From Crambe crambe (lineage: Eukaryota > Porifera > Demospongiae > Poecilosclerida > Crambeidae): a stretch of 64,000 nt of DNA. The notes under the pieces are model-generated. The model made no database searches. It saw nothing but the letters and a program-made list of their open reading frames with translations, and had not been told where the DNA came from. Location: assembly GCA_963924555.1 (NCBI GenBank), contig OZ004583.1, forward strand, positions 6,834,582 to 6,898,581, given 5' to 3'. The position numbers were made by a program, and so were the translations under genes. Below are positions 1 through 62,503 of the stretch, one piece after another (positions within the stretch are counted from its first letter, which is position 1; each line of letters opens with the position of its first letter).

Positions 1-2599
1 ATTTTGAATCACATGTGTCTACAAATAATTAATTAGCATAAACGTACCTATAAATGAATCTTTCTTTCTAAACTATTGTTTTTATCCAGCTACGTATGTA
101 TGAATGTTATTCTAACTTATCTGTGGTTCCACTACAACACCGACTGCAATCCATAAACAAATAGACACCAACCACAAAAATACTGGCAAAATGACAAGTG
201 ACAACACAATCCACACATGTTTATCACCTGAAACAATTATTAATAACAAAGAACTAATAATTAGAATTTAAGTTATATCTCTATAAATTGTGACTTACTT
301 GCTCTATCACACTTTCGAAATAGTGGTATCCACACAAGGAAAATAAGAATGCCTAATATCAGAAAAAGTAAGCCAATAATCAAAAGCCCAATGTTGGCAT
401 CAGTCAGACGAGTGGCAACTGTAAGGAAGAAATCATTCCATAATCATTATAAGCAAGAGCACCACGGATGTAATTTTACATTCTCCAGTCATAAAACTTA
501 TTCTTGAGATGTAGATAGTCAAGTTTACTCTCACTTCAACATGGAAGTAGTATTGAGTCAAAGCATCCATCAGTGGCAGGGGAGAGGGTGAGTTCAAGGA
601 CACATTCAGGTGGTTGTTAAAGTTTTCATAGGAGGAGTCCAGGCCATATTGGATAATACAAGGTTCTTCAGCCAGGACAGAGGAGCAGAGAAGAGTAGTA
701 ACACAATCTTCAAATGTCAGCAACCTCCATTTGTAGTGAATTTTCTGTGATAGAATAATGAACTTAAAAATCATAGTCATTTGTAAATTAATGTTGTACC
801 TATAGCAACTGATTCTGCAGTATTAGATCGTCCAAAAGCATTGACAGCATAGATTGAGACAAGATGGCTTTGATTAGAGGAGGACAAGATGTCAAAGGAG
901 GTGGAACAGAGATTATTGCAGCTATCAGAGTTAACCACCCTCTCTTCCAACCTCCCCCCTCTGCTGTCATTCAGGAATATTGAATAGTTGAGAGATTTGT
1001 CAAAGAAACAAACATCAGATATAAGCTGAAGGAAATTTATCAGTAGAGATGACAGAAAATTATGATCATGTACTTACATACCTTTACTTGCCAAGTCACT
1101 GTCACTTGACTTAGTTGATTTTCATTGTTATATGTAGGAAATACTACAATCTCAGGAATCAGTGGAACTGAAAAAATAGTCAGATAGGTTACTCATTAAT
1201 ATTGGTTTATTATATTTTGTAGTTGGTTAGTGAAGGTGAGTCTCTGGGTCCCACAGTTGATGATGCTGACATTAAAGGATTATCAATTAGACAGAATACT
1301 ATCATGTTGCTATGTATGATAATTATGATTTAATTAGACTGATAGTATTAATTAATTTTACCTATGTATTGAAAATTTAATGCAATAGCACTCTTTGTGC
1401 CTGTGCTTCCACAACTGATGTTGTTTCCTCCAAGTATTACTAAGACAGACAAGTTGGTGGTTAGAGTAGAGTAGAAGTTTGCTCTATCACGACTGCTGTC
1501 ACTGTATGAGGCCTCCACTATCTGAATCATCACCACATCTCTCCAGGGGGGTGATGCTAGTGTCTCATTGTATGGAAACTGGTGGGTAGGGATGTATGGA
1601 TAAGCAGCTATTGTGTCATCATTGATGAACCATCTCAGTGTTGCGGATGATAGGTCCACAGCAGCACAGTTAAATGTCACTTGAGGACAAATCCCAGATG
1701 ATGTATTAGGAGATAATTGAACAGAAGCTAAGAAAATTGATAAAAATTATTCAATATCAGAAGTTTTTCTTCCACGATATAAATTATGGCATGTGGAAGC
1801 ATAATAGTGTATATGTTATTATGATTATAATTACCTTGATTCTGCAATTTTCTATTCATTTGGAAATAGCTATAGCTACAGTAAGCTAGTTTCCTACCTA
1901 TAGCTAGCTTTATATATATTTTTGTTGTCATTAATTTGGTCCTGTAGGTAATGGTTGACAAAACATCGATAGTTGTGTAGAAAAGCTACAGATCTTGCTA
2001 CAGATCTTGCTGCAAAAATTGACGCAATTTAAACACTAGGAGGGAGAGTATTGCCTATAGACATGGTTGAGCTGATCACTATTGGCTTGGAGTTGATGTA
2101 CAGACAGATACATAGACACGACTGAGTAGTTTGTACTGACTATGAAAAATTTAAAGGGAGAAGTGTTTTGAGTGCATGGGTATACGTATAAGTTATTCCA
2201 CAACAATGAAGGCTGCATGGTTTATATTGCTAAAGCCTGAGGGCGAGAGGAATGTAAACCATACATGGTATAACCTATTTATAGCCTTATTTGGGCATTG
2301 TTATGGTGATTTTTGATATCACCCTCACCTACTTCCTAGGTTGTATTGTGGTTGTGAATTTCAACCAAGTACACAAGTAGGCTATAGATACATGCAATTC
2401 TAACAAGCCATACCACAAGTAAAACATACACTCAAAGTGCACTCTTCAAAATTAATTTTACATTTTATTATACTTTCAGCTAATATAAGTGAAGAAACCA
2501 TAATTATTTATTTTGAAACTACTACCTACAGTACAACTGAAACTTACATTTTACAATCCGTGAGTTTATAATCACAATCACGATAGAGAGTATAAACAT
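1..2599 (-). CDS. Receptor gene A, Ig/FN3 three-pass membrane protein (5' part, possibly decaying)
   Basis: This is the third copy of the tandem receptor family; it runs off the left edge. Exons in transcription order: signal peptide 2548-2599 (begins MFILSIVIVIINS); Ig-like 1362-1727 (122 codons, Cys...LRWF...Cys); FN3 part 1082-1167 and 800-1025; membrane-proximal FN3-like 480-744; TM1 299-418; TM2 117-227; TM3 starts at 18 and continues outside. Border phases match paralogs B and C. Two faults stand out. The separate first FN3 exon seen in B and C is reduced to a remnant of about 55 bases near 1225-1280. The exon at 480-744 is 11 bases shorter than the 276-base paralog exons, which shifts the frame to an early TGA unless an AG further into the exon is used as acceptor. 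The gene may be a pseudogene or a shortened isoform-only locus. The cytoplasmic tail is not in the window. Confidence 0.75.
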
Positions 2600-2720
2600 C
2601 AGATTCTATGTTGATAATCATAATGATAGCCAGCACATAGCTACTGAATATGATATGTAAACACTGTGGGGCAAGTATAAACAGAACCAAACACATACCT
2701 GAAGACTATCAGATTTCAAA
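2600..2720 (-). promoter_or_regulatory. Upstream block of gene A conserved with gene B
   Basis: The bases just upstream of the signal-peptide ATG resemble those upstream of gene B (22,378-22,500). Both contain a shared stretch around ATATGTAAACACTGTGGGGC (2649-2668; 22,446-22,465, one base different) and the same AACATCAGATTCTATG at the start codon. Such conservation between paralogs fits a 5' UTR exon or core promoter, but could simply mark recent duplication. No TATA box or initiator was assigned. Confidence 0.35.
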
Positions 2721-10489: not shown

Positions 10490-10570
10490 GATCACTGCTT
10501 TATAGCTACTTCTGACAGTGGAAATCACTGCTTTCGCTATGTTAGCTGCTTTCACGATCACTGCCTTCAC
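10490..10570. repeat. CACTG-rich degenerate tandem repeat, left part
   Basis: Repeats of the type ATCACTGCTTTCACTGTGATC. The tract is split by the LINE insertion and resumes at 11,913. The last 14 bases (ATCACTGCCTTCAC, 10,557-10,570) form the target duplication of the LINE. Confidence 0.75.
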
Positions 10571-11912
10571 GATCCTAGACTTTTGCAAGGCTTTCGACAG
10601 TGTACCACACAACGAGCTCCTCTTAAAACTCCACAATCTCGGTGTATCCGGTGACTTATGGCTTTGGCTACAATGTTACTTGGAGGGCAGGTCGCAATGT
10701 GTATGCATTGATGGTTCTAGATATTCTTTCTTGCCTGTGATTTCCGGTGTCCCTCAGGGTAGCATCCTAGGTCCATTGTTATTCCTAGTGTATGTTAATG
10801 ACTTACCTGATTGCGTTCTAAAGTCATCCTTATATATGTTTGCTGATGATGCCAAATGTGCCTATCCCATACGCTGTACTACTGATAGTACTATGCTCCA
10901 GGATGACCTTGATTTAATGTGCAAATGGTCTAGCATGTGGAAACTTTCATTCAAGGAGAGTAAATGTGTTCATCTTCGTTGTCGATGTAAAGATGGTGGG
11001 TTTGACTCTGCATACTCTCTAAATGGCGTGAATCTTGCTACCCATAACACCTATAAAGACCTTGGAATCATTATATCATCCGGTCTGTCATTCAACGAGC
11101 AGTAACAGGTACATCACAGCTCGAGCCTTTCGTGTGTTAGGTCTTCTTAGAACTTTTTCAAAATCTATGAACATTCGTGAGAAAAAACTATTGTATATAA
11201 GTCTGGTACGTTCACAGCTGCTTTATTGTTCGGTTTTGTGGAGACCTCATCTAGTTAAAGATATAGAAATGCTGGAACGTGTGCAGAGACATGCCACCAA
11301 ATACATACTCAATGACTTCAAATCCGACTATAAGAGTTGCCTGTTGGCACTGAATATGCTTCCTCTTATGTATGTGTTTGAGCTTCAGGACATCCTCTTT
11401 GCAGTATCCAATTTCAAATCCGTCAACAAGGATTTTGACCTGCTCAGTTTTCAGTTCAGTACAAGGGGAACCAGGTCGTCCACGGGACTAAAACTATCTC
11501 ATGTGTATGCTCAAACCAACAGATCCAGACACTTTTTCTTTAACAGAATACCCAGACTTTGGAACTCTCTCCCTCCTTTCAATCTTGAATTGTCAATTGC
11601 CACCATTAGGCATAATCTAGTGAACTTTTTATGGAACCACTTCAGGGATAATTTTCTCTCTTCATCAGCCTGTAGCTATCATTACTTGTGTCCATGTTCA
11701 AATGTTATCAAGTATTTCACAGTCCAACTTTTTAACTCCTGTGTACTCTTTTCTATTCTATTTTACTTGCATTTCATGGCTGTTCATTCAGACCATCAGT
11801 ATGGTAACAGTTAACTATATATATATTGTTTTTTTTCCTCCTCGCTTGCCATTTACTATACTGTAAAGCATTATAGCTATAAAAATAAAATAAAATAAAA
11901 ATAAAAATAAAA
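10571..11912 (+). mobile_element. 5'-truncated non-LTR retrotransposon (Jockey/CR1-like)
   Basis: Encodes the C-terminal part of a LINE reverse transcriptase. The fingers/palm motif is LDFCKAFDSVPH, followed by SGVPQGSILGPLLFLVYVND and the catalytic MFADDAK. After this comes the C-terminal region with LLYCSVLWRP and RIPRLWNSLPP typical of CR1/Jockey elements. The coding is in two overlapping frames (to 11,105 and from 11,035), so there is one frameshift near 11,090-11,105. No endonuclease or ORF1 is present; the element starts inside the RT. It ends in an A-rich AAAAT-type tail (11,878-11,912). The flanking 14-bp direct repeats ATCACTGCCTTCAC (10,557-10,570; 11,913-11,926) are a target-site duplication, so this is a dead-on-arrival insertion. 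Confidence 0.9.
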
Positions 11913-26197: not shown

Positions 26198-26534
26198 TTA
26201 ATAACCTTTCTTTTCGGACTCCTTGTGGCAGTGAGGACAAACCATTACAGTGTTTCCAATGTATTGAAGATGGGCCTTGTTTTTAGAACATTCATTGCAA
26301 ACAACCTACAGAATGAGTTGGTACAGTTGTTGCTATAATGATTATTATCTCTAAAGGAAATCCAAAATACAAAAGATTTCAGAGAATGTGGTAGCTAACT
26401 ATGGTCAAACTCACCTTACCACATGCCCGGCAGTTATTACGAGATTCAATGATTGCATTGCAAGCATAACACTTTTCACTTTCGATGTCCCACTCAGGTT
26501 CTTTGGCTCCAAATATTGCTGGAGAAGCTCTCAT
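26198..26534 (-). CDS. Gene C fourth FYVE finger and long-form stop
   Basis: The first half, 26415-26534, carries [14 protein letters not shown] and NNCRACGK. The second half, 26198-26305, carries [14 protein letters not shown] and [10 protein letters not shown]. The W-D-I-E part resembles the WxxD motif of FYVE domains and CRACGK is canonical, but the basic residues before it are lost (SRNNC in place of RRHHC). Reading on after EKK gives G-Y-stop, so this exon can end the protein. Gene B's last exon ends the same way (HQKKG-stop). Confidence 0.65.
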
Positions 26535-48800: not shown

Positions 48801-51800
48801 TGAACTCAGGAAAATGCAGCAAGAAGATGTGACCCTAGAGGATATCAGAGCAAAGGTCAGAAACCCTACCAAGATGACCAGGAGAGTCTTCTACGAGGAG
48901 AATGGTCTTCTCTACCAACAGTGGACACCACCTCAGGGTGACGAGAACACCACCATTCAGCAGCTAGTACTACCAGAACCATGTCGCAGTGTTGTGATGT
49001 CACTTGCTCATCACATTCCGATGGCCGGCCACATGGGTCAACGGAAGACAGTGGAACGAATCCTTCAACGATTCTATTGGCCAACAGTGTTTGAAGATGT
49101 GAAGCAGCTATGCCAGACGTGCAGTGAGTGCCAGAAGACAGCAGTGGGGAAGAAGCAGCGTGCACCAATGGTTCCTCTACCCATCATCTGGGAGCCCTTT
49201 GAACGCATCGCCATGGACATCGTGGGTCCCCTTCCTCGCAGTCAAGCTGGAAACAGGTACATACTTGTAATTTGTGACTACAGTACGAGGTACCCTGAAG
49301 CTATTCCATTACGAGCCATAGATGCTGAGCATGTGGCTAAAGAGCTTATGGTATTCTTTACGAGGGTAGGCATTCCCCGAGAGATCTTGACGGATCAGGG
49401 TGCAAATTTTACATCTGGCCTGTTAGCTGAACTCTATCGTCTGTTAAAGATCCAACCCATTAAGACCAGCCCCTACCACCCCCAAACTGATGGGTTGGTC
49501 GAGAGATTCAACCAAACTCTCAAGGCCATGTTGCGTAAGACAGCAACTGAGGAGGGAAAAGATTGGGACCAGTTAATTCCATACCTCTTATTTGCCTATC
49601 GGGAGGTTCCCCAAATGTCTACAGGGTTCTCCCCTTTTGAGTTGATGTATGGCAGGCAAGTGCGAGGGCCCTTAGACGTCCTCAAGGAGACATGGGAAGC
49701 CAGCAAGAAGTCCACCAAGAGTGTTGTGTCTTACGTTCTGACAATTCAAGAGAAGCTCACCAAGATGTCTGAGTTAGCCAGTGAGAACCTTGCAAGAGCT
49801 CAGTCAACCCAGAAGAAGTGGTATGACCGCAATGCACGAGAGAGGAAGCTACAAGTGGAAGATAATGTGTTAGTCCTCCTACCTTCCTCGACCAACAAGC
49901 TACTAGCAAAATGGCAGGGTCCGTACCCTGTGAAGAAAGTCATCTCACCAGTGACTTACGAGGTTGATATGTTTGACCACAAGAAGCGGCGAAGAGTATT
50001 CCACATCAACATGCTACAGAAATGGAACACTCCCACAGTTCGAAATCTCTGGGCGGAGGAGGAGACAGAGAGGGGAGGAGACACCACTGATGACATCCCA
50101 TTGTGGAAAGATAGTGAAGATTCCATGAAGGAAGTTGTACTGGATGAGCAGTTAAATGAAGAACAGCAACAAGACCTTCGTCAGTTGACAGCTGAATTCA
50201 CTGAAGTCATGAGTAACACACCAGGAAAGACTGATGTTATCGAGCATGACATTGAGACTGGAACAGCACGTCCAATCCGATTGCCACCTTACCGTCTATC
50301 ACATGCGTATCGAGATACAGTCAAGAAAGAGATCTCAGAAATGCTAGAACATGGTGTGATCGAACCATCTACTAGTGAGTGGTCTGCCCCGATTGTATTG
50401 GTGAAGAAAAAGGATGGTACCATTCGATTTTGTGTAGACTATTGACGACTGAATGGAATATCTGAAGCAGATGCATATCCGATGCCACGCATTGATGAGA
50501 TGATTGACCAGCTTGGACGAGCCAAATTCATCACCACTTTGGATCTGACCAAAGGGTACTGGCAGGTACCCCTCACCAAAGGAGCCCAGACAAAGTCAGC
50601 GTTTGCAACACCCTTCGGACTGTATCAATTCAAGGTCATGCCCTTTGGCCTTCAAGGAGCTCCAGCAACCTTTCAACGACTAATGGACCGGGTACTACAG
50701 GGACTGGAAGATTTCTCAGCTGCATATCTAGACGATGTTGTCATCTATAGTACCAGCTGGAAAGACCACCTCACACATCTACGACAGGTGCTAAAGCGAT
50801 TGCAAGATGCCGGCCTCACACTGAAGCTCCGGAAGTGTCAGTTTGGGATGGCCCATTGTGTGTACTTGGGTCATGTTGTTGGGAGCGGAGTGGTGAAACC
50901 AGAAGGAACCAAACTGGATGCAGTCAGCTCATTCCCAAGACCAGAAACCAAGAAGGAAGTTCGTTGTTTCCTGGGACTGACAGGTTATTACAGGAGATTC
51001 ATCAAAGACTTCGCTTCCACTGCAGCTCCTCTGTCAGATCTTACCCGCAAAAATGCACCATCCAATGTGGAATGGACACCAGCATGTGAAAAAGCCTTTC
51101 AGATGTTGAAGAAACAGATGTGCTCCCAGCCAGTGCTACACAACCCAGATTTTTCCAAGAGTTTCATCCTCCAAACAGATGCATCCAATCGAGGAGTGGG
51201 GGCAGTTCTCAGCCAAGTCGACGAGGGTGGAGATGAACATCCAATCGGATTCTTCAGTCGGAAACTTCTTCCCCGAGAAGAGCACTATTCAACGGTGGAG
51301 AAAGAGTGTCTGGCCATTAAGCTAGCTGTGGAAGCTTTTCGAGTCTACCTCTTAGGACGTCACTTTGTAATCCAGACAGACCATCACTCCTTGGAATGGA
51401 TGGAGCGGATGAAGGAGAATAACAACCGTCTGACCCGTTGGAGCTTGGCCTTACAGCCATTCAACTTTACCATTCGTTATCGGAAAGGCAAGGATAACCA
51501 AAATGCTGATGCCCTCTCACGTTTACCAATTCCGACATGAATGTCGCAGGGGAAGGGAAATCTGGACCTTGTATGTTCAACACCTCTGTTTGTATGTTTG
51601 TAACCTAATTATCATTTCTGTGTGTTAAGTTTAAAAATTGTATCATTCTCTGTGTGCTTGTGAATCTTTGTCTGTGTTAATCTGTAACTCTTTGATGTGT
51701 TCTAGAGTGGTAGTGACTTGGTATAAAAAGGACAGATGTAGATGAATAGAGAGCTCTTGTTTCGTTTTTGTTTGTGTGTCATACTGAAACTCTACTTCTA

Positions 51801-54800
51801 CTATTAATATTTTACTGATATTTGACTTCTGCATTGCGTCCTGACAGGTGACTTTATCACATTTCGAATAATTGGATATAAATTACATGCACATGCGTAT
51901 TATAGAAAAGATGGCTTCCTAATTGAATTAGTCGAGTGCTGTGCTCCGTAGTGTCTCCTTTTTCATTGAGTCTTTGGAGGATCAACGAGTAGAAAAGATC
52001 GTAGTTGGTAGAATTTGGGGTGGATTTATCCAGAAATCATAGCTGTAGCTTGAGTGGTTCGAGAGATGTGGTTGTCTAAGAATAATAATAATAATAATAA
52101 TAGAGAAGAAGAAGAATTCAGCGATTTACCTGCTTGCCGTATTTCTGAAACGGTAAGCTCCCTGGTCCTGAAACTTGGTCTGCACATTGTAGTAGGCTCT
52201 AGTAGGCTGGATAATCATTCACAGTAGCTTTTGTTAGGTCTAAGTGGGGGAACTAGAATTTCACTTTTGTATTAGTCTAATAGGCGGCGCGCGCGGCCGT
52301 CCGAGTCATCCCTACATAGAGAGTGCTACCGCACTCTCTGATATCTAGGTCTATACTCCAAAATGTCCCATGTAGGGGTATAGTAGCCCTGGCATTATAT
52401 GCATGCACAGTGCGCTATGTATGTAAACCTGGGGCATGACCTAGATATACATAAACTGAGAGTCAGCTCACTCACTTCACTCGCTGGCTGAATTGCAATA
52501 ATATGGGCTAGCTATATTTTCAGCTTCTAGCTATCTCATGTAACTCACTTTTTGTTGGGATTGCTCAGTTGCTCCATCTTGATTGTCAAGTCCCATACTT
52601 AATAGATTGGCTCGGTCATCCTATGATATTAAATATAATGCATGATGCCATGCTATTGCATTATAGCTAGAGTTTCACCAGCATATCTGCACCTATAGCT
52701 AGATTTTTATGAAACTAGCTGATTAAAAGTTAGTTCTTCTTACAATTGCTAGAGTGTATACACACCTCATGCATGAATGCATGACTGTATGTGTGCTGTC
52801 TATGCATGGAGTGGACTATTTTGTCATTTATCGATAAAAATGCACACAAAGTAAAGCAAAATGTCTATATCACACCACTATAATAGCAAGAAGCATTAAA
52901 CAGAGGTTAAAACTAGAGGAATAGAGGTGTAGCTAGCTAGTTATGTAAACATTTTAATAGGTGATAATCATCTATCTGTAGAAGGCCACAATTTGGAATA
53001 TGACAATGTTAAATTTCCAAAGATGAGTAGTCACCAACAAATACTTCCTCGTTTGCAATATTTCCACTGTGACTGGTATGAGCATACACATGTTCAGCTT
53101 CCACAATGGACTCGTAGTTAGGGTTATTAAGTTGCCTAGCAGTTGATATCTAATAAATCAGAGTATAACCTTTCATAGTTAACAAAAGAGTGCTTGAGTG
53201 CACATGGAATGACCCAGTGAAATGGAACAAAAGAATCAGGATTTCAGTCTCTCAGTGTACTGCTGAAAAGATCAAAGTACATACATAGTATGTTGAGGAA
53301 AAGGGACCACCACTATTCAAATGAAAGCACTGAATTCTTGGCACTGTTATTATCAACATGTCACATTGTTATCACACTGATGAATTGGTTTGTACCCAAC
53401 ACAAGCTTTGAAATTGCGGTATAGTACGTTCATTTCTAACAGCAGCCTCAATCGTTGGGTATAACTACACAATTGCTATGAGTGTGTACTTGTGTATAAG
53501 AACGCCTATTTGAACTAGCGACATTTTATTATGAACCAAGAATTTCACACAAAGAGCATGTAATTCATATCATGTTGGTACTTCAGTTTCGATCTCTAGA
53601 CAAATGCCTTTAGACAAACAGACACTGTAATCCTCGTTTGTGCATGCATGCTGAGGATTAATTAATCTAGAGATTTAGAATGATGGTGGCTTAACAGATT
53701 TGCTTAATGAAAGTTCTTCCTTTCCAACTATGCACATAATTATTATAACAATGGACACACCTATGTCCTTATGGGGCAGCTTATTCATATAGCTCTCGCA
53801 TTATATATAACCTACATACCATATCAATGCAGAAGCTACATCCCACCTATGTAATACATACAGTTTGTGAACTTGCAGTGGAGCCATTCTTTGCACTTGT
53901 AACAGTTTGAGCTTGTTGAGTAGAAGTAATTTGAGGAGAAGCTGGTTGATAAAATTTGGATGGCTGTCGAACACCAGGACCATGCACTGGTATCTCTGTG
54001 GGAAGGGAGGGAGGGATGGAGAAAGAGATTTTACTAAGGCTATTAACATCATCACACAAAAATCACACAAAATCTTTCTGACCGGCATTCACTCTATAAC
54101 TTTCTCGATTACTGACCAAATTTCAAATATCAAACACCAGCAGAGAGTGTAGATAATTAGCTCTCTCTGTTGATGCATTTTGGTTGGAATGATCAAGGTG
54201 CCAGGTGAATGCAACTTTAGTTATGACTCAGTGAGCATTATGCATCCTTTATAACTGCTACTGTATTTTCTGTCGCCGCCTCTATGCTATTTTAAGGTGA
54301 TGACAGTTAACTGCAGTGTATTGAGAACCTGCATGTTAAATGAATAGTCCTTCAACCTGGTGTTCCTGATATGATGATCTACAAGCTTAGAATTTTAAAA
54401 TTTAGACCTCTAGCAAATGGCATCAAAACATCCAAATACAGATACTCCCCAAGTGTCATTCCAAGATGTACAATATTATGCATCATGTACACACAGTTAA
54501 AGATTTTAAGCTTATTTCGATATAAGGAACCCATGTAGTGATCACTTACTTTTCTTAATACATTTTTTATAGCAAGAATCACACACTCTTCTTTTTTTGC
54601 CTCCGAATAAGAAGAAAGTATTCGAATAAGAAGGGAGTTCAGCTTTATTGACAGAGCACAACGAACAGTAACTCTGTAAAAATTAGTGTAATCATGAACA
54701 GAGGAAGGTGAAGTAGGGATAACTTACTACAGATCTATGGTGAAAAGAAAGAGTACATAACAAGGGATATGGTTTAGAATAATATTATACAAGGATAAAA

Positions 54801-57800
54801 TCAAGTGAAATTGTAGAGTGATGCATTTGCCCAGGCTCTTATAGTCTCTATAACTCTGATCAGTTGAAGCAGTTAAGTATACAGCTATCAAGCTCAAGAT
54901 CTAATTCTGAAGTCAAACATGAAAAAGTTTACAAACAAGAAGGGATGAGAGCAGCTGAAACTTATACTCAGCTAGATCTTGTGGCTAAGTCAATATAATG
55001 ATCTCAACTAAATATCAATATGCCATTGGTCCAATTGACTAATCTGAAGCAATTTACTGACCATCTTATTTATTGAATTGCATATGAAATAATCCTTCAT
55101 AAGATATTGATGTTTCAGTTGAGATACATTATACGTTATCATCGGGTAAGTTTCAACTGCACTCATTCTTTCTTGTTTGTAAACTTCACTTTTCATCCTA
55201 CATAAATTTTTATAAAAAAGAAAAAAAGAGAGAAAGAAGTTGCTTTGCTAGGAACAGTTCTTGGGTTGATGTTCCAGCAGTTTTCAATTAAAGATCTTGT
55301 GGCTAAATGAGATAACTAACATGAAGTACAAAGTTAAAGGTAAACATGGCAGCATTATAATTATGTCAGGAAGTAGCTTGTTCTAAGATAATTATGAGGT
55401 TTAGTGTATGTATAAAGCTACAGAATAAGCAGCTACAGCAGCTGGAAAACTCCAAATTTAGTATTTTGATGACACTATACTTTGCTGATACCCTTGAGTC
55501 TTCATGATTCTTCATTCAATAATTATAGTAGCTTTACTTCTCCATTGGTTTAAATTTGACTGTTAGAATTAGTGTGATTACTATTGTAATTTACCTTGCC
55601 ACATGCATCACAGCAGTAAAGTATATTTGTAAGAAAAGAATCTTCTGATCCACACTGCTGACATTTGGATGCTTTCTCCTGGCTTGGTTTGACAGATCCA
55701 AAGTCATCATCAATTGGCTGCAAAAGAACAAACATGCTTATTTCATTCAGAGGATCCACCATGCATGACAAAGCTGTGGGTTTATAGTCTAATGATTCTT
55801 ATTCCAATCTTTTAGTAGAAAATGCATGTCTATGGGAGCATTGCAGATTACATGAGAAGGCCCAAGAGAAACTTAAGTAGAAGTCATACTGTATGTCTCT
55901 ATTAAACACTCGAGGGTCATAGGCCGTCATGGCTATATATGACCTTTAACCCTTCTAGAAGATTCCTTTAGCATGTAGCTCTACACCTGTGTTCAAATTG
56001 AAGTAAAGCTCAAGTCCTAACTGTCAATTGCCATCCAAGTGCCTTCGTGGACGCTTGACAGCCATAACTCCTGACTGCTTCGTCCTATATCTATGATCTT
56101 GGTACCTTCTTGAAGCTCTACACCTGAGGTAAGGAATGGTATTGTTCAAATTGAAGTAAAGCTCAAATCCTAACTGTCAATTGCCATTTGAGTGCCTTCG
56201 TGGACCACAAATTATCGAATGCTTCATAGACAGCACAGTTAGTTTAGCTATACACTTCGTAGACTACGTAGACAACATTAGAATGCTTCGTAAACACAGT
56301 TATTTTATTCACTGTATATCACGAGTCTTGCTGAGTTGCAATTGTGGTGGGCGTGGTAAGCTTATTTGGTAAAGGGTTTTCTTGACTTGAAAAAAAGTGT
56401 GCAAACAAGAAATGAAAGAGTGATGTAGGCTTGAGTACATAACTATAAAAAGTACGGAAACAAGGGTGGGATAGCTTGCTAGCTATGTACTGTATTTGCT
56501 GTGCTAGAATTGACAAACCCTACATAGCTAGTTGCATGGACTGCATTTGTGCTCTGCTAACTGTCATAAAATTGACATAAACTCTACATCACTGCTGCCA
56601 TATTATTCTTTTTGGCAGCAATGTGATCAATTTTATGACATTTAGCAGAGCATAAATGCAGTCCACGCAGCTATGTAGGGTTTGTCTGTCAGTCAATTCT
56701 GTGACTGTTAGCAGAGCAAATGCACTGCAGAGCTGCTAGAAGCAATTCTGAGGTAGTCAGGCTAAATATGTGCATGTATGCACGTAAGCGCACGAAAATT
56801 TTTTATTGACCACACCCACCTATATTAACGGTTGAACACGTGGGCAATTTTTTAATGTTGACGACCACTACCAATGTTGTTTGATTGATGAGTGGTCCGG
56901 TTTTTGCCTGACCAGCCGGAGCGGTTCCGGCGGCTCTGGCTGCAGTAGCTACATAGCCAGCAAGCTACCCCACCTTGTTTCCGTACTTTTTACAGTCATG
57001 TACTCAAGCCTACATCACTCTTTCATTTTCCTCTCATAATTATTTAGAGTTATTTACCTGTTCTTCTGCTTTTAGTTCTTTAAGCTCAACCTGAAAGAGT
57101 ATAATAATTACAGCTAACTACTGTTGAGTCAGGGCACATTAGAAACAACAACAATGAATATCTATAGAAGGATTAGGCATTATTGTTATGAAAACTCTGG
57201 CAACTGTAAATTTATATACCTTAGATTCATGTAACTTCTTGAAACGACTTTTACAGATCACCACAAGAATAGCAGCAATATATAGTAGAAGGGAGATGAT
57301 GGAGAGGACAAATGCTGCTATAATGAGATTGTCTCTGTTGGACTGCCATTTTGAATCACATGTGTCTATGAATAATAAGTTTGAACATTAGCATAGCAAC
57401 CTCATTTCTAATATTATTGTGCATTATTTTTAGTTTTGTAATTTTTTTTGTTGTACTAATCAATATCATCCTTACTTCTCTGCGATCCCACTACAATACC
57501 AACTGCAATCCATAAACAAACAGATACCAACCACAAAAAAACAGCTACTAGCAGGAGGACAAGTGATGTAATCCACACATGTTTTTCAGTGTCTGAATAA
57601 TAAGAATAATGTCCAATAGTGAATGAGTTGAGCTCTGGAAAATCATGACTTACTTGCAGTGTTACATTTTATAAAAAGTGGTGTCCACACAATTATAATA
57701 ATAATGCCTAATATCAGAAAAATCACGCCCATAATCAAAAGCCCAATGTTGGTATCGGTCAGAGGAACGTCAACTATAAAAAAAAAATAATCATAAACAG

Positions 57801-60800
57801 GAACACAAACTACTAGCTAATAATTTACGTTCTCCAGTCATGAAACTTCTTCTTGACTGGTAGAAAGTGGAGTTTACCCTCACTTCAAAAAGAAAATAGT
57901 ACTGAGTTGAAGCATCCATCGGTGGCAGGGGAGAGGGTGAGTTCAAGGACACATTCAGGTGGTTGTCAAAGTTCTCATAGGAGGAGTCCTGGCCATATTG
58001 GACAACACAAGGTCCTTCAGCCAGGACAGAGGAGCAGAGAAGAGTAGTAACACAATCTTCAAATGTCAGTATAGGACTTAAAAACTCCATTTGTAGTGAG
58101 TTTTCTGTGATAGAATAATGAAATTGACTAAAAATCATAGTCAGTTGTAAATTAATATTTACCTATAGCAACTGATTCTGTAGTATTAGATCGTCCAAAA
58201 GGATTGACAGCATAGACAGAGATAAAATTAGATGAAGACAAGTTGGTAAAGGAAATGGAACATTTATTGCAGCTATCAGAGTTAACCACCCTCTCTTCCA
58301 ACGTCTCCCCTCTGCTATCACTCAGGAATATTGAGTAGTTGAGAGAGTTGTCAAAGGAACAAACATCAGATATGGATAAACGCTGGAATTATGAAAATAG
58401 AGGTGATTGTAGCTACATGTTATGATGTAGAACTTACCTTTACTTGCCAAATCACTGTCAGCTGACTTAGCGAATTTTCATCATATGTAGAAGTTACTAC
58501 AATTTCAGGAATCAGGGGAACTGAAAATAACAGTCATGCAGGATATACGAATAAATTGGCATCAATGCAACCACATATTTTACCTTGTGGGTGGACTATG
58601 ATAGTACTCTCAACCCCTTCTTGATTCCCACAATTGATGGCACTGACTGTGAAGGAGTAGCGTGTCCCAAAGACTAGTCCAGAGCAGCTGTAATTCTCAC
58701 TGGGACTTAACAGCTGTTCACTGGGACAGGAAGAGGGGGTGGAGCTTGCTACTACACGATAGTTGGTCACACTATTCTCAGAAGAAAAGGAGGAAGACAC
58801 TGTTACATTTCCAGGAGAGATGACAAGAGAGCATTCTGGCACAGGATGTCTGGGAGGCTCTATATACAACTCATTTTAACGGTCCATCATAATTATTAAA
58901 AAAATAGTTTACCTATATATTTGAGATTTATTGCACTATTATTACTTCTGGTTCCTGTGCTCCCACATCTGATGTTATTTCCTCCAAGCATTACTAAAGC
59001 AGACAAGTTAGTAGTTAGAGTAGAGTAGAAGTTTGCTTTATCAAAATCGTTTTCATTGTAGGAAGCATTCACTATCTGAATCATCACCACATCTGTCCAG
59101 GGGGATGATATTAATATTGTCTCATTGTATGGAAACTGGTGGGTAGGGATGTATGGATAAGATGCTATTATGTCATCATCAATGAACCATCTCAGTGTTG
59201 TGGATGGTAGGTCCACAGCAGTGCAGTCAAATGTCACTTGAGGGCAAATTCCAGATGATAAGGTGACATTAGGAGATAATTCAACTGAAGCTGTGGAAAA
59301 TTATTGATAAGCAGCTATTAATTAATTTTCAACCATGAGATCACAAATTCAGTACTGTATTTTATACAGTCAGTTTTTCAGATGCTTTGTTGGGTTTCAA
59401 CAGGAAGTAATAATTAAGCAATAATAATAACAATTAATTGTCCTATACAGATCAAGGGATCAATGGATTAAGGTTATAGTTATAGGATGAATATATCAGT
59501 TGTTATACTTATTGGATGGAATAGATAAGATCTAGTGTGTTTAACTTATGAAGAGCTTCTAGAGAATGATGGCTGGTACATTCTTTTATAAGTTGGTCAC
59601 TAAAATTTTGACGATAAAGAATAGTTGCACAGGTAACTTTACCAGAATGTCCAGTTTGTCGATCTTAAATTATACACATATCTGGTGGGCTATTATTTCT
59701 CCCTACTGGTTGCTTACCAAATCCAGAGCTAAAAATTAGGGTTCAGTGTTGCCAGGACAACTTGTCCTAGCAAAATGAGTGGTCATTTAGTAAAATTGGT
59801 CGGACATTATGCATAGCAAAAAAAAAGCAAAAAAAAAAGCCAGGACTGCGTGCGCTGTCCATGGCCACAGGCAGCATGCGCAGTGCGCTCACTACATTGA
59901 AGTGGGCGGAGTCTCGAACTAGAGTTAAGTTAGCTCTAGAGAGAAGTTAGTTTCTAGCCAGTGCCAACTGAAGCCTAGATAAGAGCAACAAGGTACTGAA
60001 GGTAGCGTAGAAAGCTTAGTTACTTCATATTTCCAAGCGCATAAGCTGGAAAGCTACCTTGGTTCAGCTGCTGGATGCACGAAGCTTTCATGGCTGACTA
60101 GCTAGCTTTAGCGCTTCATTTCTACTTTAGTCTAAGTTCCAAAACTTGGTTAGAAGTTTGTTCAAGGATCATTTTAGTCTGAAACTGTTGTTAGGACAGT
60201 GCAAACTGTGGTCAAATCTGATAATTGCTCAGAAAATGACCGATGTCCGCCTGTTATTTTAGCTGTGCAAATCTAGGTACACCAGAGATATCAGAAGGAA
60301 GTGGTCGAAAGTAGAAATTTCAATCACTGCTTGGAAGACTGAGAGGTGAAGTTTCATACCTTATTCTCAACTTTCATGTACTTGAGACCACCCCAATTTG
60401 TCTTGCTACCAAAGTCAGTATATTATACTCTAAGTACACACGTCCTTGCACGTCAACTTTCTTCTGATACTGTGCACATTTAAGGTTACGGTGTTCATCA
60501 TAGCTATGTAACTTTACAGTGTTCATCATAGCTATGTAACTTTGCAGTTGTACAGTATTGAGTAGAGCTTTAGAACTGTGTGTGCCAAACTGCCCACAAG
60601 ACCAGAGCAAGGCTTCTTCATCACGAGTGATAGGCTCAGCTTGTTTGGAAGTAGCGCCCAATCCCAATCCATGCAGGCACTTCATTTCTGTATCCAGAGT
60701 AGATCTAAAATTACCAAAAGTTGCATCCGTGGTATTCAAAGGATTGACAGTATGCTCTCCATTTTACTTGAAAAATCACTTGAAACAGAAGATTAAAGCA

Positions 60801-62503
60801 TACAATGACTTGGGTGGGTATTCGCTGCCATCAACTTTACGTACCTCAAGTACAAACTTCCCCATCTATAGGCAAGATCCTCTGGTGGCATTTGAAGTTG
60901 AGGGGTTGTCACATCAGCTCTAGCTCTATCAGTCTTAGTAACTCTAGAAGATGCCCAATCATTCCAAACCCGCATTCCCCACTCAGTAGTTTTTCCTGGG
61001 ATGGCATTCCCTCACAGCACAACTTCATCTGCGTCACTAACTGGAGAAGTAAACCTTTCAGTCATTGCTAGCTAGCTAGCTATACAATCGATTGCAGTGC
61101 TGCCGTTGGCATGATCTGATTGGCTGAAGGTCATGTGACTGGAACTAAAACGTTAAAACATTCTTATCCAGCTCATATATTTTAATGTGACACACTCAAA
61201 TGATGTAATAATGCTCTCGGTGATGTAATGCACTTACTTGCCTTCGGCTCATGCATTACATAACTTCAAACATTATTACGTCATTCTTGTGCAGGCACAT
61301 TAAAACACTTAGAGCTGCACCAAATATTGCATAATAATTATTATATTAGTGTCATTCATCAATCATCGACCACCTAAAGCAATATCATTTAGGTGGCAAT
61401 ATCATTTTTAAACTTAGTCTTTTTCATGATAGCTAGATGTACACTGTCCAGTTTTGCACCGATCTTGCTAAAATTGCTAAAAATAGAACAAATTGCTGTA
61501 ACCTTACAAAATTTGAAGAGAAATATTTGCTGCCTTATTAGCAATTTCTAAAAGCACAATAATAATTGGTAGGAATGAGGTGAACACCCCTCAGCTTTAT
61601 CCTTTGCTATAATTTATTATGCCTATGAAGTACACTAGCTATAGCAGTATCCCTCAAAGCCAATAAGCATAAACATTTTTGTGTGGATGCAGAAAGGATT
61701 AGTATATCACATTGTTATAAGTAATAGTTATTAACCAAGTGCTAGGTTTGTAGTCAATTATAGGCCCGAGTGCTTATAATTCACTACAAACCACATGGTT
61801 AATAACTATTTTATAGCCCGCGAGAGTGTACTACGCATGCTCAGTACTTCTGTCTCTATATAGAGATGTTACTTTTTGGCTGCTAACAAGAATAGGCCAT
61901 CCCACTTCAACATTGTGACTCATACAGTACTAACTATCTTTCAGTCTATAACCCACCCACTCACTGTGCTTTAACTTGCTCACGTAAGGTAGGGGCACAG
62001 CGTCATAATTATGGTTGGAGCTGAATGGCAAGTAGGGCAGCTAGTGCAGAATACCAGCCACGCTGTTACGCAGCTCGCAAGTTCTGCCTTTTATGCTGGC
62101 TACTCTCTGAAAAGCTTGTTGGGTTTGAAATGTGGAATGTGGTCAATGAATATCATTATAGCATGCGCACCGTGTTCAATGAATAATATTAAAATTCTTT
62201 TCTGAGAGTAGTTAGTATAAGGACAGAACTCTATACTGTCACATACTCATCTTTCAGTCTGGTCACAACTCCTTTAAAGTGCATTATCAACTTTGCAGAA
62301 TCTATATCTAACTTTTCCCTGTAAACACCACCCCAGGCTACAATTACATGCACTGTATCACATTTATAAATCCATGTAAATCGGTCCGTTACCATGGCAA
62401 CGGGCTATAATTATGGCTACAGTTTAAGGGTAACTGAAAACTTACCTTCTACAATCCTTGGGTTCATTATCACAGTCAAAATTATAGTGCAAAGTACAAA
62501 CAT
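26198..62503 (-). CDS. Receptor gene C, Ig/FN3 ectodomain, three membrane passes, up to four FYVE fingers
   Basis: First gene of the array. Exons of the short form: 62446-62503, 58913-59290, 58584-58859, 58438-58520, 58163-58382, 57829-58104, 57654-57773, 57476-57592, 57220-57365, 57058-57090, 55595-55717, 54550-54673, 53862-53995 and 53009-53149. They sum to 2,229 bases, 742 residues: signal 1-19, Ig to ~145, FN3-1 to ~237, FN3-2 to ~338, membrane-proximal domain to ~430, three TM segments to ~558, FYVE ~570-651, proline-rich to 696, NPNY tail to 742. Downstream exons (see cassettes) are all phase-compatible; skipping the two terminal exons would give ~1,294 residues ending at 26,198. Large introns hold the LTR element, pogo element, PIF/Harbinger remnant, Crypton remnant and MITEs. 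Assignment of the distal FYVE cassettes to this gene is inference, as no other start with a signal or TM exon exists between 26 and 53 kb. Confidence 0.7.
26594..27711. mobile_element. Non-autonomous DNA element, ~28-bp TIRs
   Basis: The left end TACCATATAGCACTTAATTTTTGAGGGA is an inverted match, with two changes, to the right end TCCCTCGAAAATTAAGTGCTATACGGTA. It contains a second element at 26,876-27,553. It lies 9 bases from the pogo-like element at 27,721. No transposase. Confidence 0.7.
26876..27553. mobile_element. Nested MITE with 24-25-bp TIRs
   Basis: AAGCAAACTTGATTATTAGT at the left (continuing TTCTC) is exactly mirrored at 27,529-27,553. The inner part has GGATGCGGGCGG and its inverse near both ends. 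A 63-99 codon open frame on either strand has no domain. GGGCGGGCGG-type blocks also occur in the element at 28,021-28,346, so the two may be related. Confidence 0.75.
27866..28566 (+). pseudogene. HIRAN-domain protein split by a MITE
   Basis: The first part, 27,866-28,020, reads [20 protein letters not shown] then [19 protein letters not shown]. After the inserted element the same frame type resumes at ~28,347 with [38 protein letters not shown] and LEIPC, ending at a TAA at 28,566. The spacing and motifs match HIRAN domains (N-x-x-D-x-x-A-V-x-V and V-G-(H/Y)-x-P), known from HLTF/Rad5 to bind 3' DNA ends and also found as stand-alone proteins. As it stands, reading into the MITE stops after 58 residues. 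Within TIRs of the transposon it looks like a passenger gene; its role is unknown. Confidence 0.65.
28021..28346. mobile_element. MITE inserted in the HIRAN frame
   Basis: The ends AGGCCACTATTTATAGAAT and ATTCTATAAATAGTGGCCT are inverted copies, with a further inverted GTTTCCTGTCCA / TGGACAGGAAAC just inside. Flanks suggest a short TA- or ATA-type target duplication. Removing the block would leave VAVKKDD directly followed by IVGHLPRK, as in intact HIRAN proteins. The 63-codon minus frame at 28,105-28,296 is internal and not a gene. Confidence 0.75.
28636..30159 (-). CDS. pogo-like DDE transposase, 507 aa, intact
   Basis: Single open frame starting [12 protein letters not shown]. Residues ~52-100 form a helix-turn-helix-like region ([20 protein letters not shown]). 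KKRGRP at ~118-123 is AT-hook-like. The DDE catalytic core has LNWDQTG (D238), IVIMDNFEG (D357) and [13 protein letters not shown] (D393), i.e. two aspartates 35 residues apart, as in the DD-x-D pogo/Tigger group. The tail is acidic and serine-rich ([12 protein letters not shown]). Length is normal for the family and there are no stops. It cuts and pastes the surrounding element at TA sites (family knowledge). The other frames overlapping it are shadows. Confidence 0.9.
   Translation of the reverse strand: MSLRRYLRPKDGLPNPRGSLSSSMSSIAIAQANKEVQEVLKPKEKKRGKYNKFSAELRAEIGKYASYHGVAATARHFSRKLKKKVSESTARSIRDSYLIEAKRKRVEDLEDIEALPEKKRGRPLLLGDALDEKVQLYLRKVREAGGTVSAGIAIAAARGLLLKYNRMSLDEFGGPVHLSRHWAYALLNRMKFVRRKATTAKSKYTVDDFDRVKKSFLDEVVTVATMEEVPPELILNWDQTGIRIVPCSPWTMDQQGARRVEMIGTNDKRQITGVFCGSLVGDFLPVQLIYKGKTARCHPRYKFPSDWNITHSPKHWSTETTMLEYIEEIIIPYIKTKRQELREEEDEDEKAAIVIMDNFEGQVTDSVNQLLDSNNIHVCLLPPNTTDLLQPMDLTVNKPGKEFIKKKFENWYADKVIEQLDDEGDLEPINLGLPLLKELGAEWLVEMFHYISDNPQFITSGFICSGISHALDEQEPEDAEFHSLSEFSDSASDSDPEEVTASSNDED
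30784..30845. repeat. (GA)n microsatellite, ~31 units
   Basis: Uninterrupted GA/AG dinucleotide run in an intron of gene C. The Arg-Glu frame through it is an artefact. Confidence 0.95.
30955..30982. repeat. Poly-C tract, 28 bases
   Basis: Uninterrupted C homopolymer on the plus strand (G on the sense strand of gene C). Length may be affected by sequencing error. Confidence 0.9.
31315..35469 (-). CDS. Gene C linker exons between third and fourth FYVE
   Basis: Five short exons, all phase 0-0, with good GT-AG borders: 35368-35469 ([19 protein letters not shown]...), 34608-34694 ([13 protein letters not shown]...), 32828-32887 ([15 protein letters not shown]...), 32301-32393 ([15 protein letters not shown]...) and 31315-31425 ([17 protein letters not shown]...). 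They encode hydrophilic, Asp/Glu/Gln/Asn/Pro-rich segments without a fold, probably a flexible spacer. 35368-35469 is the paralog of 52549-52620 and 16303-16374 (shared NQDGxxEQ). Their uniform phase means any can be skipped without shifting the frame. Confidence 0.6.
31561..31794 (-). other. Possible Helitron N-terminal fragment
   Basis: 77-codon frame rich in Arg/Ala/Glu: [20 protein letters not shown] then [15 protein letters not shown]. This resembles the RRA-x-R-x-x-ET-x-EQR-x-x-R-L repeats found at the N-terminus of many animal Helitron Rep-helicases. No Rep or helicase part follows. Weak call; it could be chance composition. Confidence 0.3.
32427..32733. mobile_element. hAT-like MITE
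   Basis: The left end CTGGGGCGGATCCAGG and the right end CCTGGATCTGCTACTGG are inverted matches to the common CAGTGGCGGATCCAG hAT-type terminus. About 305 bp, no coding. No convincing target duplication. Sits between gene C linker exons. Confidence 0.6.
33003..34588. repeat. Composite foldback: two ~290-bp MITEs around a ~1-kb inverted repeat
   Basis: 33,003-33,292 and 34,303-34,588 are copies of one foldback MITE (TAAATAAAAAGGCCATGTAG at one end, mirrored as GGCC(T)TTTTATTTAGCAT). A third, half copy is at about 45,290-45,405. Between them the arms at ~33,293-33,770 and ~33,865-34,297 are inverted repeats of each other (TTTTATATGACC / GGTCATATAAAA, GAGCCTGTAGCAAGAATAG / its complement). The open frames at 33,599-33,787 and 33,967-34,299 lie in the arms and are not genes. 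Confidence 0.8.
35934..37409 (-). CDS. Gene C third-cassette proline-rich, YVNI and NPNY terminal exons
   Basis: 37231-37409 is a longer copy of the proline-rich exon ([20 protein letters not shown], then Pro/Ser/Thr-rich). 36543-36614 encodes [20 protein letters not shown] fits the pYxN consensus for Grb2-type SH2 domains. 35934-36086 is a terminal exon ([20 protein letters not shown] then [17 protein letters not shown], stop), paralogous to 53,009-53,149 and 16,822-16,950. Phases are 1-0, 0-0 and 0-stop. If used as 3' end it would give a form with three FYVE fingers. Confidence 0.65.
37720..38180 (+). pseudogene. PIF/Harbinger (ISL2EU-like) transposase remnant
   Basis: [19 protein letters not shown] then [17 protein letters not shown] and [12 protein letters not shown] are the C-terminal part of the DDE_Tnp_4 family (D-R-G-F carrying a catalytic Asp, and R-x-H-V-E-R-V carrying the Glu). 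The next part, [20 protein letters not shown] and the Cys-rich [11 protein letters not shown], is in another frame, so a frameshift near 38,060-38,080 breaks it. The N-terminal half is missing. Lies in the gene C intron between 37,409 and 39,466. Confidence 0.7.
38232..38604 (-). pseudogene. Possible second ORF of the same ISL2EU-like element
   Basis: Minus frame with [20 protein letters not shown] and [10 protein letters not shown]. This resembles the K-A-Y-K-S-L-x-x-Y-x-x-F-V-x-G-W-V segment before the zinc-binding part of the YqaJ-type protein that ISL2EU elements carry as their second gene. It converges on the transposase remnant. The downstream zinc and nuclease parts are not recognisable. 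Moderate to weak. Confidence 0.4.
38605..39465. other. Intron of gene C, no feature recognised
   Basis: Contains only short open frames without domains on both strands. It may belong to the neighbouring transposon remnant. Confidence 0.4.
39466..39885 (-). CDS. Gene C third FYVE finger (two exons)
   Basis: The first half, 39763-39885, carries [17 protein letters not shown] and EYCRACGK. The second half, 39466-39565, carries [14 protein letters not shown] and [10 protein letters not shown]. All eight zinc-ligand cysteine positions are present, and CRACGK is canonical, but the basic motif reads SREYC instead of RRHHC. It is closest to the fourth finger (26,198-26,534), which suggests these two arose by duplication. 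Phases are 0-0 and 0-1, the latter fitting the proline-rich exon at 37,231. Confidence 0.7.
40125..44374 (-). CDS. Gene C linker exons between second and third FYVE
   Basis: 44325-44374 ([17 protein letters not shown], phase 1-0), 44029-44088 ([20 protein letters not shown]), 43721-43801 ([20 protein letters not shown]...), 41380-41448 ([20 protein letters not shown]...) and 40125-40208 ([20 protein letters not shown]...), the last four phase 0-0. A (V/T)PHDxx repeat opens three of them, so they look like tandem exon duplicates. Disordered, polar spacer by composition. GT-AG borders are present at each. Confidence 0.6.
40277..40312. repeat. (ATAC)n microsatellite
   Basis: About nine ACAT/ATAC units with one interruption. 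Confidence 0.85.
40925..41285. repeat. Foldback MITE F2, copy 1
   Basis: GAAAGAGTGATTTAGGCTTG at the left is mirrored by CAAGCCTACATCACTCTTTC at the right. Inside, GCTCTGCTAACTGTCATAAA is mirrored by TTTATGACAGTTAGCAGAGC. Copy 2 is at 56,415-57,030. No coding. Confidence 0.8.
41541..42915. repeat. Repeat-rich intron segment with ATCCTCGGC ends
   Basis: Begins ATTTAATCCTCGGCACGCATG with a small hairpin (ATCCTCG...CGAGGAT). The first ~200 bases recur inverted at about 53,500-53,665 (TGAACCAAGAATTTCACACA; ATCCTCG...TGAGGAT). GCCGAGGATT at 42,903-42,912 may be the other end of an element. Direct repeats of a CATCTTGTGACAAGTCTGACC type occur at 42,630-42,840. No gene. Confidence 0.4.
43368..43630. 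repeat. Foldback element
   Basis: The outer ends TTCAATAGAA / TTCTATTGAA enclose a strong hairpin at 43,381-43,472 (CGTTCTTATATAGCTA...TAGCTATATAAGAACG, with GTCTAGAC-type inner pairs) and a direct repeat of TTTCTGTGTGCATTTTTGTA. MITE-like. Confidence 0.7.
44429..45164 (-). CDS. Gene C second FYVE finger, canonical signature
   Basis: Two exons: 45042-45164 and 44429-44531. It reads [13 protein letters not shown], then [11 protein letters not shown], then [13 protein letters not shown] and [13 protein letters not shown]. All three FYVE hallmarks are present: W-x-x-D, the basic R-H-H-C-R-x-C-G patch and R-V-C, plus eight zinc-binding cysteines. This is the best PI3P-binding candidate in the window; the family is known for recruitment to early endosomes through this patch. 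Exon break and phases (0-0, 0-1) match the other fingers. It is separated from the first finger by a ~7.4-kb intron holding the LTR element. Confidence 0.8.
45290..45405. repeat. Partial copy of the 33.0/34.3-kb MITE
   Basis: GGCAGTGATGTAGGGATTAT through ACTACATGGCCTTTT matches one half of the foldback copies at 33,003 and 34,303. Confidence 0.75.
45442..45739. repeat. ~300-bp palindrome (foldback MITE)
   Basis: TTCTTAAATAAAAAGAAAAG at the left is mirrored by CTTTTCTTTTTTATTTAAGAA-type sequence at the right. The arms continue inward through GTAGGGATGGCTGTGTGCGG and AGTGAACTTCAGTCAAGTAA to a central TACTTCACTCCC / GGGAGTGAAGTA. Arm identity is high, implying recent origin. The frame at 45,412-45,627 is in the arm and is not a gene. 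Confidence 0.85.
46631..46929 (+). repeat. Left LTR
   Basis: TGGACCTTGTATG...TTTATCACA, 299 bp. Contains TATAAAA near 46,790, a possible promoter. Start uncertain by about a dozen bases. Confidence 0.85.
51563..51861 (+). repeat. Right LTR
   Basis: Same 299 bp as the left LTR apart from two transitions; preceded by a purine-rich tract. Confidence 0.85.
52315..52520. repeat. Hairpin repeat cluster
   Basis: Contains AGAGAGTGCTACCGCACTCTCT (also near 33,733 and, partly, 41,347). TATCTAGGTCTATACTCCAA is mirrored by a TGACCTAGATATA end; this segment resembles 4,740-4,860 of the window. No gene. Confidence 0.55.
52549..52620 (-). CDS. Gene C linker exon after first terminal exon
   Basis: 24 codons, phase 0-0: [20 protein letters not shown] then SQQK. 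Homologous to 16303-16374 (gene B) and 35368-35469. It lies about 390 bases past the stop of the terminal exon, with GT-AG borders. It can only be used if the terminal exon at 53,009-53,149 is skipped, in which case it keeps the frame from 53,862. Confidence 0.65.
53009..53995 (-). CDS. Gene C proline-rich exon and first NPNY terminal exon
   Basis: 53862-53995 encodes [20 protein letters not shown] and a Gln/Thr/Ser-rich end, phase 1-0. 53009-53149 encodes [30 protein letters not shown] and GDYSSLEI, then stop. NPNY fits the NPxY endocytosis/PTB consensus; YESI and YSSL fit YxxPhi adaptor signals. Bases after the stop (about 52,830-52,960) resemble those after the gene B and 36-kb stops, including an AATGCACA-type block, as expected of a shared 3' UTR. 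Confidence 0.8.
54550..55717 (-). CDS. Gene C first FYVE finger (two exons)
   Basis: The first half, 55595-55717, carries [18 protein letters not shown] then CQQC and CCDACGK. The second half, 54550-54673, carries [32 protein letters not shown]. Eight cysteines are in FYVE spacing with the RVCDSCY end. The basic patch is absent (LYCCDACG). Orthologous in position to the gene B finger at 17,831-19,212, with an extra few residues before RRVC. Confidence 0.75.
55976..56207. repeat. Imperfect direct duplication
   Basis: AGCTCTACACCTG..TTCAAATTGAAGTAAAGCTC..CCTAACTGTCAATTGCCAT..GAGTGCCTTCGTGGAC occurs twice, at ~55,978-56,050 and ~56,114-56,206, in the gene C intron upstream of the first FYVE. 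Confidence 0.75.
56415..57030. repeat. Foldback MITE F2, copy 2 with inner insertion
   Basis: Same ends as copy 1 (GAAAGAGTGATGTAGGCTTG / CAAGCCTACATCACTCTTTC) and the same GCTCTGCTAACTGTCATAAA core. Extra sequence at about 56,745-56,950 (CACACCCACC and CCGGAGCGG region) is absent from copy 1 and resembles a separate element. Confidence 0.75.
57058..62503 (-). CDS. Gene C ectodomain and membrane block
   Basis: The signal exon ([19 protein letters not shown]) lies 3.1 kb before the Ig exon. The Ig-like domain has [16 protein letters not shown] and NNIRCGS. FN3-1 ends [21 protein letters not shown]3-2 ends [13 protein letters not shown], and a membrane-proximal domain with [16 protein letters not shown] follows. 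Hydrophobic segments are [39 protein letters not shown] and [20 protein letters not shown]. After TM3 a basic [11 protein letters not shown] and a short Glu/Lys helix ([11 protein letters not shown]) follow, as expected for the cytosolic side. Exon lengths equal those of gene B or differ by multiples of three. Confidence 0.85.
59291..60373. other. Gene C first intron, part
   Basis: No gene recognised. AT-rich, with an A-rich tract near 59,816-59,840 and a GC-richer patch (59,845-59,910). It may include the 3' part of the Crypton element. Confidence 0.4.
60374..61066 (-). pseudogene. Crypton (tyrosine recombinase) N-terminal remnant
   Basis: Minus-strand pieces: [17 protein letters not shown] at 61,066 then a [20 protein letters not shown] to [13 protein letters not shown] (60,793-60,975); and [51 protein letters not shown] and [20 protein letters not shown] (60,374-60,754). 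The order matches the N-terminal and start-of-catalytic region of Crypton-type elements (DUF3504 relatives: NFR-x-x-LD-x-x-M-K-x-L, P-I-T-x-x-E-E-x-L-W, DEHR-N-L). It is broken by at least one stop and one frame change, and the C-terminal catalytic part is missing. Lies in gene C intron 1, same strand. Confidence 0.6.
61178..61310. repeat. Foldback repeat
   Basis: TTTTAATGTGACACACTCAA..GATGTAATAATG is mirrored by CATTATTACGTCATTC..GGCACATTAAAA around ATGTAATGCA / TGCATTACAT. MITE-like. Confidence 0.65.
61719..62412. repeat. Interspersed repeat family R1, copy 3
   Basis: Starts AATAGTTATTAACCAAGTGC and ends CCATGGCAACGGGCTATAA. Colinear with copies 1 and 2 but without their insertions and with a shortened hairpin loop. 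Its end lies about 34 bases from the gene C signal exon. Confidence 0.75.

Follow-up and report, generated by a model that had tools for sequence, protein, structure and literature searches.

Do the FYVE zinc fingers encoded behind a family of Ig/FN3 receptors in the sponge Crambe crambe belong to the receptor proteins themselves? FYVE fingers are found mainly in intracellular proteins that handle swallowed cargo and are a hallmark of endosomal adaptors. Fused to a surface receptor, such a finger would couple recognition with endosomal sorting in a single molecule. The locus lies in a stretch of 64,000 nucleotides of chromosome 3 (C5:6834582-6898581), called here the window; features inside it are given by window position and those beyond it in C5 coordinates. 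The original prediction, made from the letters of the window, was of three minus-strand paralogs with a common exon order and with serial FYVE fingers in their tails. Our exon mapping covered 258 kb in 20 stretches and yielded eight receptor units, all on the minus strand: C, B, A1 (gene A) and A2 to A6.

Genes C and B each comprise 14 phase-compatible exons, identical in order and phases, with AG and GT at every exon border (donor only for the first exon, acceptor only for the last). The predicted frame lengths, 2,229 bp for gene C and 2,175 bp for gene B, were recovered exactly, each as a single frame with a single stop. In gene C, exon 1 (62446-62503, minus strand, as are all receptor and FYVE exons below) encodes a signal peptide of 19 protein letters and begins some 3.2 kb upstream of the Ig domain. 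It is followed by exon 2 with the Ig domain (58913-59290, phase 1-1), exon 3 with FN3 no. 1 (58584-58859), exons 4 (58438-58520) and 5 (58163-58382), which share a second, intron-split FN3-like domain (58163-58520), exon 6, or E6, with the membrane-proximal domain (57829-58104), and exons 7 to 9 (57654-57773, 57476-57592 and 57220-57365) with three TM segments (57220-57773 in all). In gene B the signal exon (22326-22377) starts only about 0.28 kb upstream of the Ig domain; exons 2 to 6 (20614-22095) hold the Ig and three FN3 or FN3-like domains, and exons 7 to 9 (20099-20553) three TM segments. The gene B signal peptide falls below the hydropathy threshold that marked that of gene C and passes a looser screen.

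The ectodomain had been described as a signal peptide, an Ig, two FN3 and a membrane-proximal domain, ahead of three TM segments. This order holds in genes C and B, but the membrane-proximal domain turned out to be a third FN3 fold. FN3 domains were assigned by profile match or by fold: FN3 no. 1 of gene C scores 22.9 bits against a Pfam cut-off of 25, its gene B copy passes, and the second FN3-like domain has no Pfam match of its own above the cut-off in either gene. A V-like type of Ig domain is weakly supported. The gene C and B models contain 12 and 11 N-glycosylation sequons, respectively, before TM1 and one each in the tail; with the three-TM topology judged by eye, we infer an N-terminus outside and a tail inside the cell.

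Ig exons of the eight units fall into two types with about 30-36% identity between them, type 1 in C, B, A1 and A3 and type 2 in A2, A4, A5 and A6; the occurrence of both types on closely related stems suggests ectodomain exchange inside the cluster. Signal exons like those of genes C and B are also present for A1 and A3, and a search found none for A2, A4, A5 and A6. Splice sites and frames of 11 exons in each unit (exon 1, E10 and the NPNY exon excluded) were checked automatically. The frame was open throughout in C, B, A2 and A4, and likewise in A3 without FN3 no. 1. The check returned a lesion or an unresolved border in three of the eight units, in E6 of A1, at the E2 donor of A5 and in E8 of A6. 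FN3 no. 1 is absent from both A1 and A3, in the exon map as in the splice and frame check. The common exon order proposed for three paralogs is thus borne out for genes B and C, phases included, but not for gene A, which lies partly in the window (1-2599; exon 1 near 2548-2599, Ig near 1362-1728, then E4-E9). Gene A is probably broken, with one FN3 missing and E6 frameshifted by an 11-bp deletion. Elsewhere in the cluster, FYVE cassettes flank a second-type Ig exon (C5:6681912-6682259) that may be left over from a deletion; neither an FN3 nor a TM exon was found next to it.

Behind the TM segments, the tails of genes C and B contain FYVE finger 1, a proline-rich exon and an NPNY exon in that order, as predicted. 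In gene C a 33-bp linker, exon 10 or E10 (57058-57090, phase 0-0), precedes the two halves of finger 1 in exons 11 (55595-55717) and 12 (54550-54673), the proline-rich exon 13 (53862-53995, phase 1-0) and a short-form terminal exon (53009-53149) with NPNY, EHVY, DYSSL and the stop. Further on lie the linker exon E14 (52549-52620, phase 0-0), which contains DRANLL, a possible acidic dileucine; finger C2, with WNSD and KRHHCRACG in its first half (45042-45164) and RVC in its second (44429-44531); finger C3 (39763-39867, start approximate, and 39464-39565, end approximate); a second proline-rich exon (37231-37410); a second NPNY terminal exon (35937-36086, start approximate); and finger C4 (26204-26525, halves 26415-26525 and 26204-26305, ends approximate). 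Gene B has its exon 10 linker at 19528-19566 (phase 0-0), the halves of finger 1 at 19090-19212, with an in-frame TAG directly upstream, and 17831-17942, a proline-rich exon at 17343-17467, the NPNY terminal exon with its stop at 16822-16950 and finger B2 at 13964-14687 (halves 14559-14687 and 13964-14059). No Pfam match to a kinase domain was obtained in the gene B or C model, and a look by eye for ITAM or ITIM motifs in the tails gave no clear consensus.

Mobile elements are interspersed with these exons. An LTR-retrotransposon coding region (47099-51540, plus strand), which we take to be Gmr1-like, lies between E14 and finger C2 on the strand opposite to gene C, and its integrase precedes the reverse transcriptase/RNase H, whereas Ty3/gypsy elements usually have them the other way round. 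A DDE_1 transposase with a 507-aa open frame (28639-30159, minus strand) lies past the second NPNY exon and ahead of finger C4. An RVT_1 fragment (10506-11814, plus strand) is overlapped by a 260-aa ORF with no Pfam match.

Half-domain profiles run on the 258 kb at i-E ≤ 0.01 gave 24 first halves and 26 second halves, all on the receptor strand; plus-strand matches were excluded from this count, and in the underlying list, on which the strand check rests, the best of them has an i-E of 0.17. Joined by position, the halves make 23 fingers in the eight units, with one to four complete fingers behind each receptor and on its strand. One first half (A1) and five short-type second halves were left unjoined, and the second halves of A4_4 and A5_2, which lay above the threshold, were added by hand. 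PF01363 matches 22 of the 23 joined fingers at E ≤ 1e-3, so that their identification as FYVE domains stands. The eight zinc cysteines (four CxxC pairs) are kept in 22 of 23, the exception, A5_3, having a shortened first half. When predicted proteins were submitted to Pfam, the whole gene B model passed the cut-offs for both fn3 and FYVE (37.9 bits for FYVE, cut-off 27.8), but gene C, at 24.5, stayed under the latter. Among solved structures, those closest to finger C2 are ZFYVE16 (E 7.6e-10), EEA1, RUFY1 and HRS, and the one closest to finger C1 is RUFY1 (6.3e-6). A Pfam search of the genome placed 6 of 40 FYVE matches within C5:6.70-6.86 Mb. An intron right after CGK was looked for at eight FYVE loci elsewhere in the genome; the match was readable at four, and none had the intron.

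The signature of PI3P binding comprises WxxD, R(R/K)HHCR and R(V/I)C, as given in the part of PMC3017826 consulted. In this strict form it occurs in none of the 23 fingers. WxxD is present in 5 of 23, [RK]HHCRxCG in 5 and [RK]VC in 19, and all three coincide in the same five fingers, C2, A3_2, A4_2, A4_4 and A5_2, each with one Arg-to-Lys change. None of these five is juxtamembrane, and among the seven complete juxtamembrane fingers not one keeps WxxD or RHHCR.

We propose, with a probability of about 0.5, that genes B and C encode tandem three-pass recognition receptors whose cytosolic tail carries at least one FYVE finger, and which would combine ligand-driven uptake with a hold on PI3P. A chain with a V-like Ig domain, three FN3 folds, three TM helices and a tail of FYVE, proline linker and tyrosine motifs (NPNY, EHVY, DYSS) is most likely an endocytic recognition receptor, with putative ligand and PI3P binding. 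The roles assigned here to NPNY, dileucine, proline-rich and FYVE elements are those usually ascribed to such motifs. The ectodomain would bind a ligand, and NPNY, together with DRANLL where E14 is used, would bring about endocytosis or phagocytosis. Where a form includes a distal finger with the PI3P signature, this finger would then engage PI3P on early endosomes or phagosomes and retain receptor and cargo there, a single chain taking over the task of the FYVE adaptors that serve other receptors. Having lost its PI3P signature, the juxtamembrane finger is more likely a zinc-stabilised protein-binding or dimer module, and PI3P reading is possible in long forms only.

The same single-protein receptor could also use its FYVE-derived modules as scaffolds for dimerisation or docking near the tyrosine motifs, in signalling or adhesion and with no PI3P reading. 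We regard this as possible but doubtful: it would account for fingers that keep their zinc ligands while 18 of 23, all seven complete juxtamembrane ones included, are without the three-motif signature, but it sits poorly with the five that hold WxxD, RHHCR and R/K-VC with a single Arg-to-Lys change.

Both of these readings place finger 1 in the receptor protein, and the eight copies bear on this directly. In an alignment read by eye, E9, which holds TM3, ends at a donor in phase 0 in each of the eight units (the automatic check chose another GT for E9 in six of the eight), and the first FYVE exon begins in phase 0 in all eight. In units B, A2 and A4 this exon, which lacks a Met, directly abuts an in-frame TAG and must therefore be spliced from an upstream exon. 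Only 315 bp separate E10 from the first FYVE exon in gene B, the same intron being 1.3 kb in gene C, and five of the seven conserved blocks in a C-versus-B comparison of the tails are the E9, Fa1, Fb1, proline and NPNY exons, colinear. On these four grounds a separate gene for finger 1 was rejected. The single Ig/FN3-TM-FYVE protein of the original prediction is thus well supported by the eight-copy comparison as far as finger 1, but weakly for the fingers behind it.

For fingers 2 onward, membership in the receptor protein is weakly suggested. The phases allow a long form in which E13 or E14 would be spliced to finger C2, all in phase 0, and the C2 first-half exon has an in-frame TAG directly before it and no Met inside. 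In unit A4, an NPNY exon was sought between the first cassette and the later fingers and none was found. In genes C and B the NPNY terminal exon brings a stop ahead of finger 2, and these genes may yield nothing but the short form. Serial FYVE tails therefore hold as a genome layout of one to four same-strand fingers per receptor, and only possibly as a joint protein. A receptor ending after TM3, or after finger 1 and NPNY, with the other FYVE exons as separate genes or ectodomain-less remnants, would agree with that stop, with the lone second-type Ig exon and with the transposable elements between cassettes. We consider it unlikely, given the TAG, the phase conserved in eight units and the short gene B intron at finger 1, and, for the later fingers, the TAG before the Met-less C2 exon and an A4 array with no NPNY exon found between its first cassette and the fingers behind it.

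Selection evidence for the FYVE tail is mixed. Pooled dN/dS over seven exon classes (pairs not independent, proline and NPNY exons outside the pool) was 0.70 for the first FYVE halves, Fa (173 usable of 276 pairs), 0.46 for the second halves, Fb (106 of 322), and 0.36-0.43 for five receptor exons. Between genes C and B, the first FYVE half-exon gave 1.3 and the proline exon 1.15, indicating no constraint. Nine recent Fa pairs (>85% identical) had 6.7 changes over 204 synonymous versus 29.3 over 852 nonsynonymous sites, approximately equal rates; constraint was evident in 14 recent Fb pairs, with 23.0 over 240 synonymous versus 33.0 over 1,122 nonsynonymous sites. That the cluster is functionless and mostly decayed is very improbable: lesions or unresolved borders in three of eight units, transposable elements and the loss of FN3 no. 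1 from two units point that way, but five of eight units are open through all checked exons present, and none of the seven classes tested has a pooled dN/dS as high as 1.

The family extends far beyond the mapped units. E6 has 111 matches in the genome, 109 of them at C5 6.639-8.149 Mb and 2 on C9; with one C5 exon listed twice, about 108 membrane-proximal exons occupy a complex of 1.5 Mb. Outside chromosome 3, E6-type matches occur only at C9:2.72 and 2.95 Mb, as two similar copies. The Ig exon has 84 matches, 80 on C5, 2 on C9 and 2 on C21, a few exons being in two pieces. Relatives were sampled in five other stretches of the complex, and no FYVE half was found among them, the best i-E in four of these stretches being 0.058, at chance level. 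In one stretch, the 30 kb at C5:6898001-6928000, paralogs sharing this ectodomain follow one another in tandem on the plus strand, with one TM and a long tail containing tyrosines (IPNYENN, LEHEYECT); the half-profile search found no FYVE there. The other stretches, at 8.136-8.144, 7.549-7.556, 6.660-6.670 and 6.632-6.640 Mb, hold receptors with three TM exons, the first two with a short tyrosine tail. In C5:8136001-8144000 these are close paralogs with an E6 84-90% identical to that of gene C, three TM exons and a two-tyrosine short tail, again with no FYVE half found. Two minus-strand receptors left of the eight units (C5:6660001-6670000 and 6632001-6640000) have E14-like linker exons, and no FYVE exon was found in the 6-8 kb behind the TM exons of the relatives near C5 6.638 and 6.668 Mb.

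With 109 of 111 E6 matches within one 1.5-Mb region, a recognition role for this clustered family, raised as speculation at the outset, gains weight. How sponges distinguish self from non-self and symbiont from food is a long-standing question, and the complex offers a concrete candidate region in which it can be tested. Only tentatively, and with doubt, would we go as far as animal surface receptors with built-in PI3P readers and alternative FYVE tails in a megabase candidate complex for allorecognition or microbe recognition. If confirmed by transcripts, such receptors would form an unusual link between surface recognition and intracellular sorting.

How do these models compare with known proteins? 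ZFYVE16/endofin, EEA1, RUFY1 and HRS are soluble cytosolic proteins. They resemble the sponge fingers in sequence, and finger C2 also in the PI3P signature, but the sponge fingers are apparently fused to a receptor. Sponges also have Ig-domain receptor tyrosine kinases. Like these, and like the Geodia adhesion molecule GSMS in the part of its description consulted, the proteins predicted here would present an Ig ectodomain in a sponge membrane protein; unlike the receptor tyrosine kinases, the gene B and C models have FYVE instead of a kinase domain. A protein database search at E ≤ 1e-3 gave no match among 7,988 candidates for gene C (742 aa, residues 1-740) or 7,991 for gene B (724 aa). Among the literature matches listed, as far as their openly accessible text was consulted, none described an Ig/FN3 receptor that carries FYVE fingers, and a term count on PMC2837644 found none of transmembrane, receptor, fibronectin or immunoglobulin.

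The nearest genomic parallel, compared by description, is the Alr family of the Hydractinia allorecognition complex, presented in the parts of PMC11999971 and PMC13119343 consulted as a clustered IgSF receptor family of 41 members with V-set Ig domains; the sponge family differs in being FN3-rich and in its three TM exons and FYVE tails. Among published concepts, the transmembrane membrane reader comes closest. Protrudin (ZFYVE27), an ER protein at endosome contacts, is the FYVE example of this class in the part of PMC9692390 consulted. It combines TM segments and a FYVE domain within one protein, much as a TM helix and a putative lipid-reading domain would be joined according to the gene B and C models. 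That part of PMC9692390 mentions no Ig/FN3 ectodomain for protrudin, whereas in the sponge one to four fingers follow what would be a receptor of the surface type.
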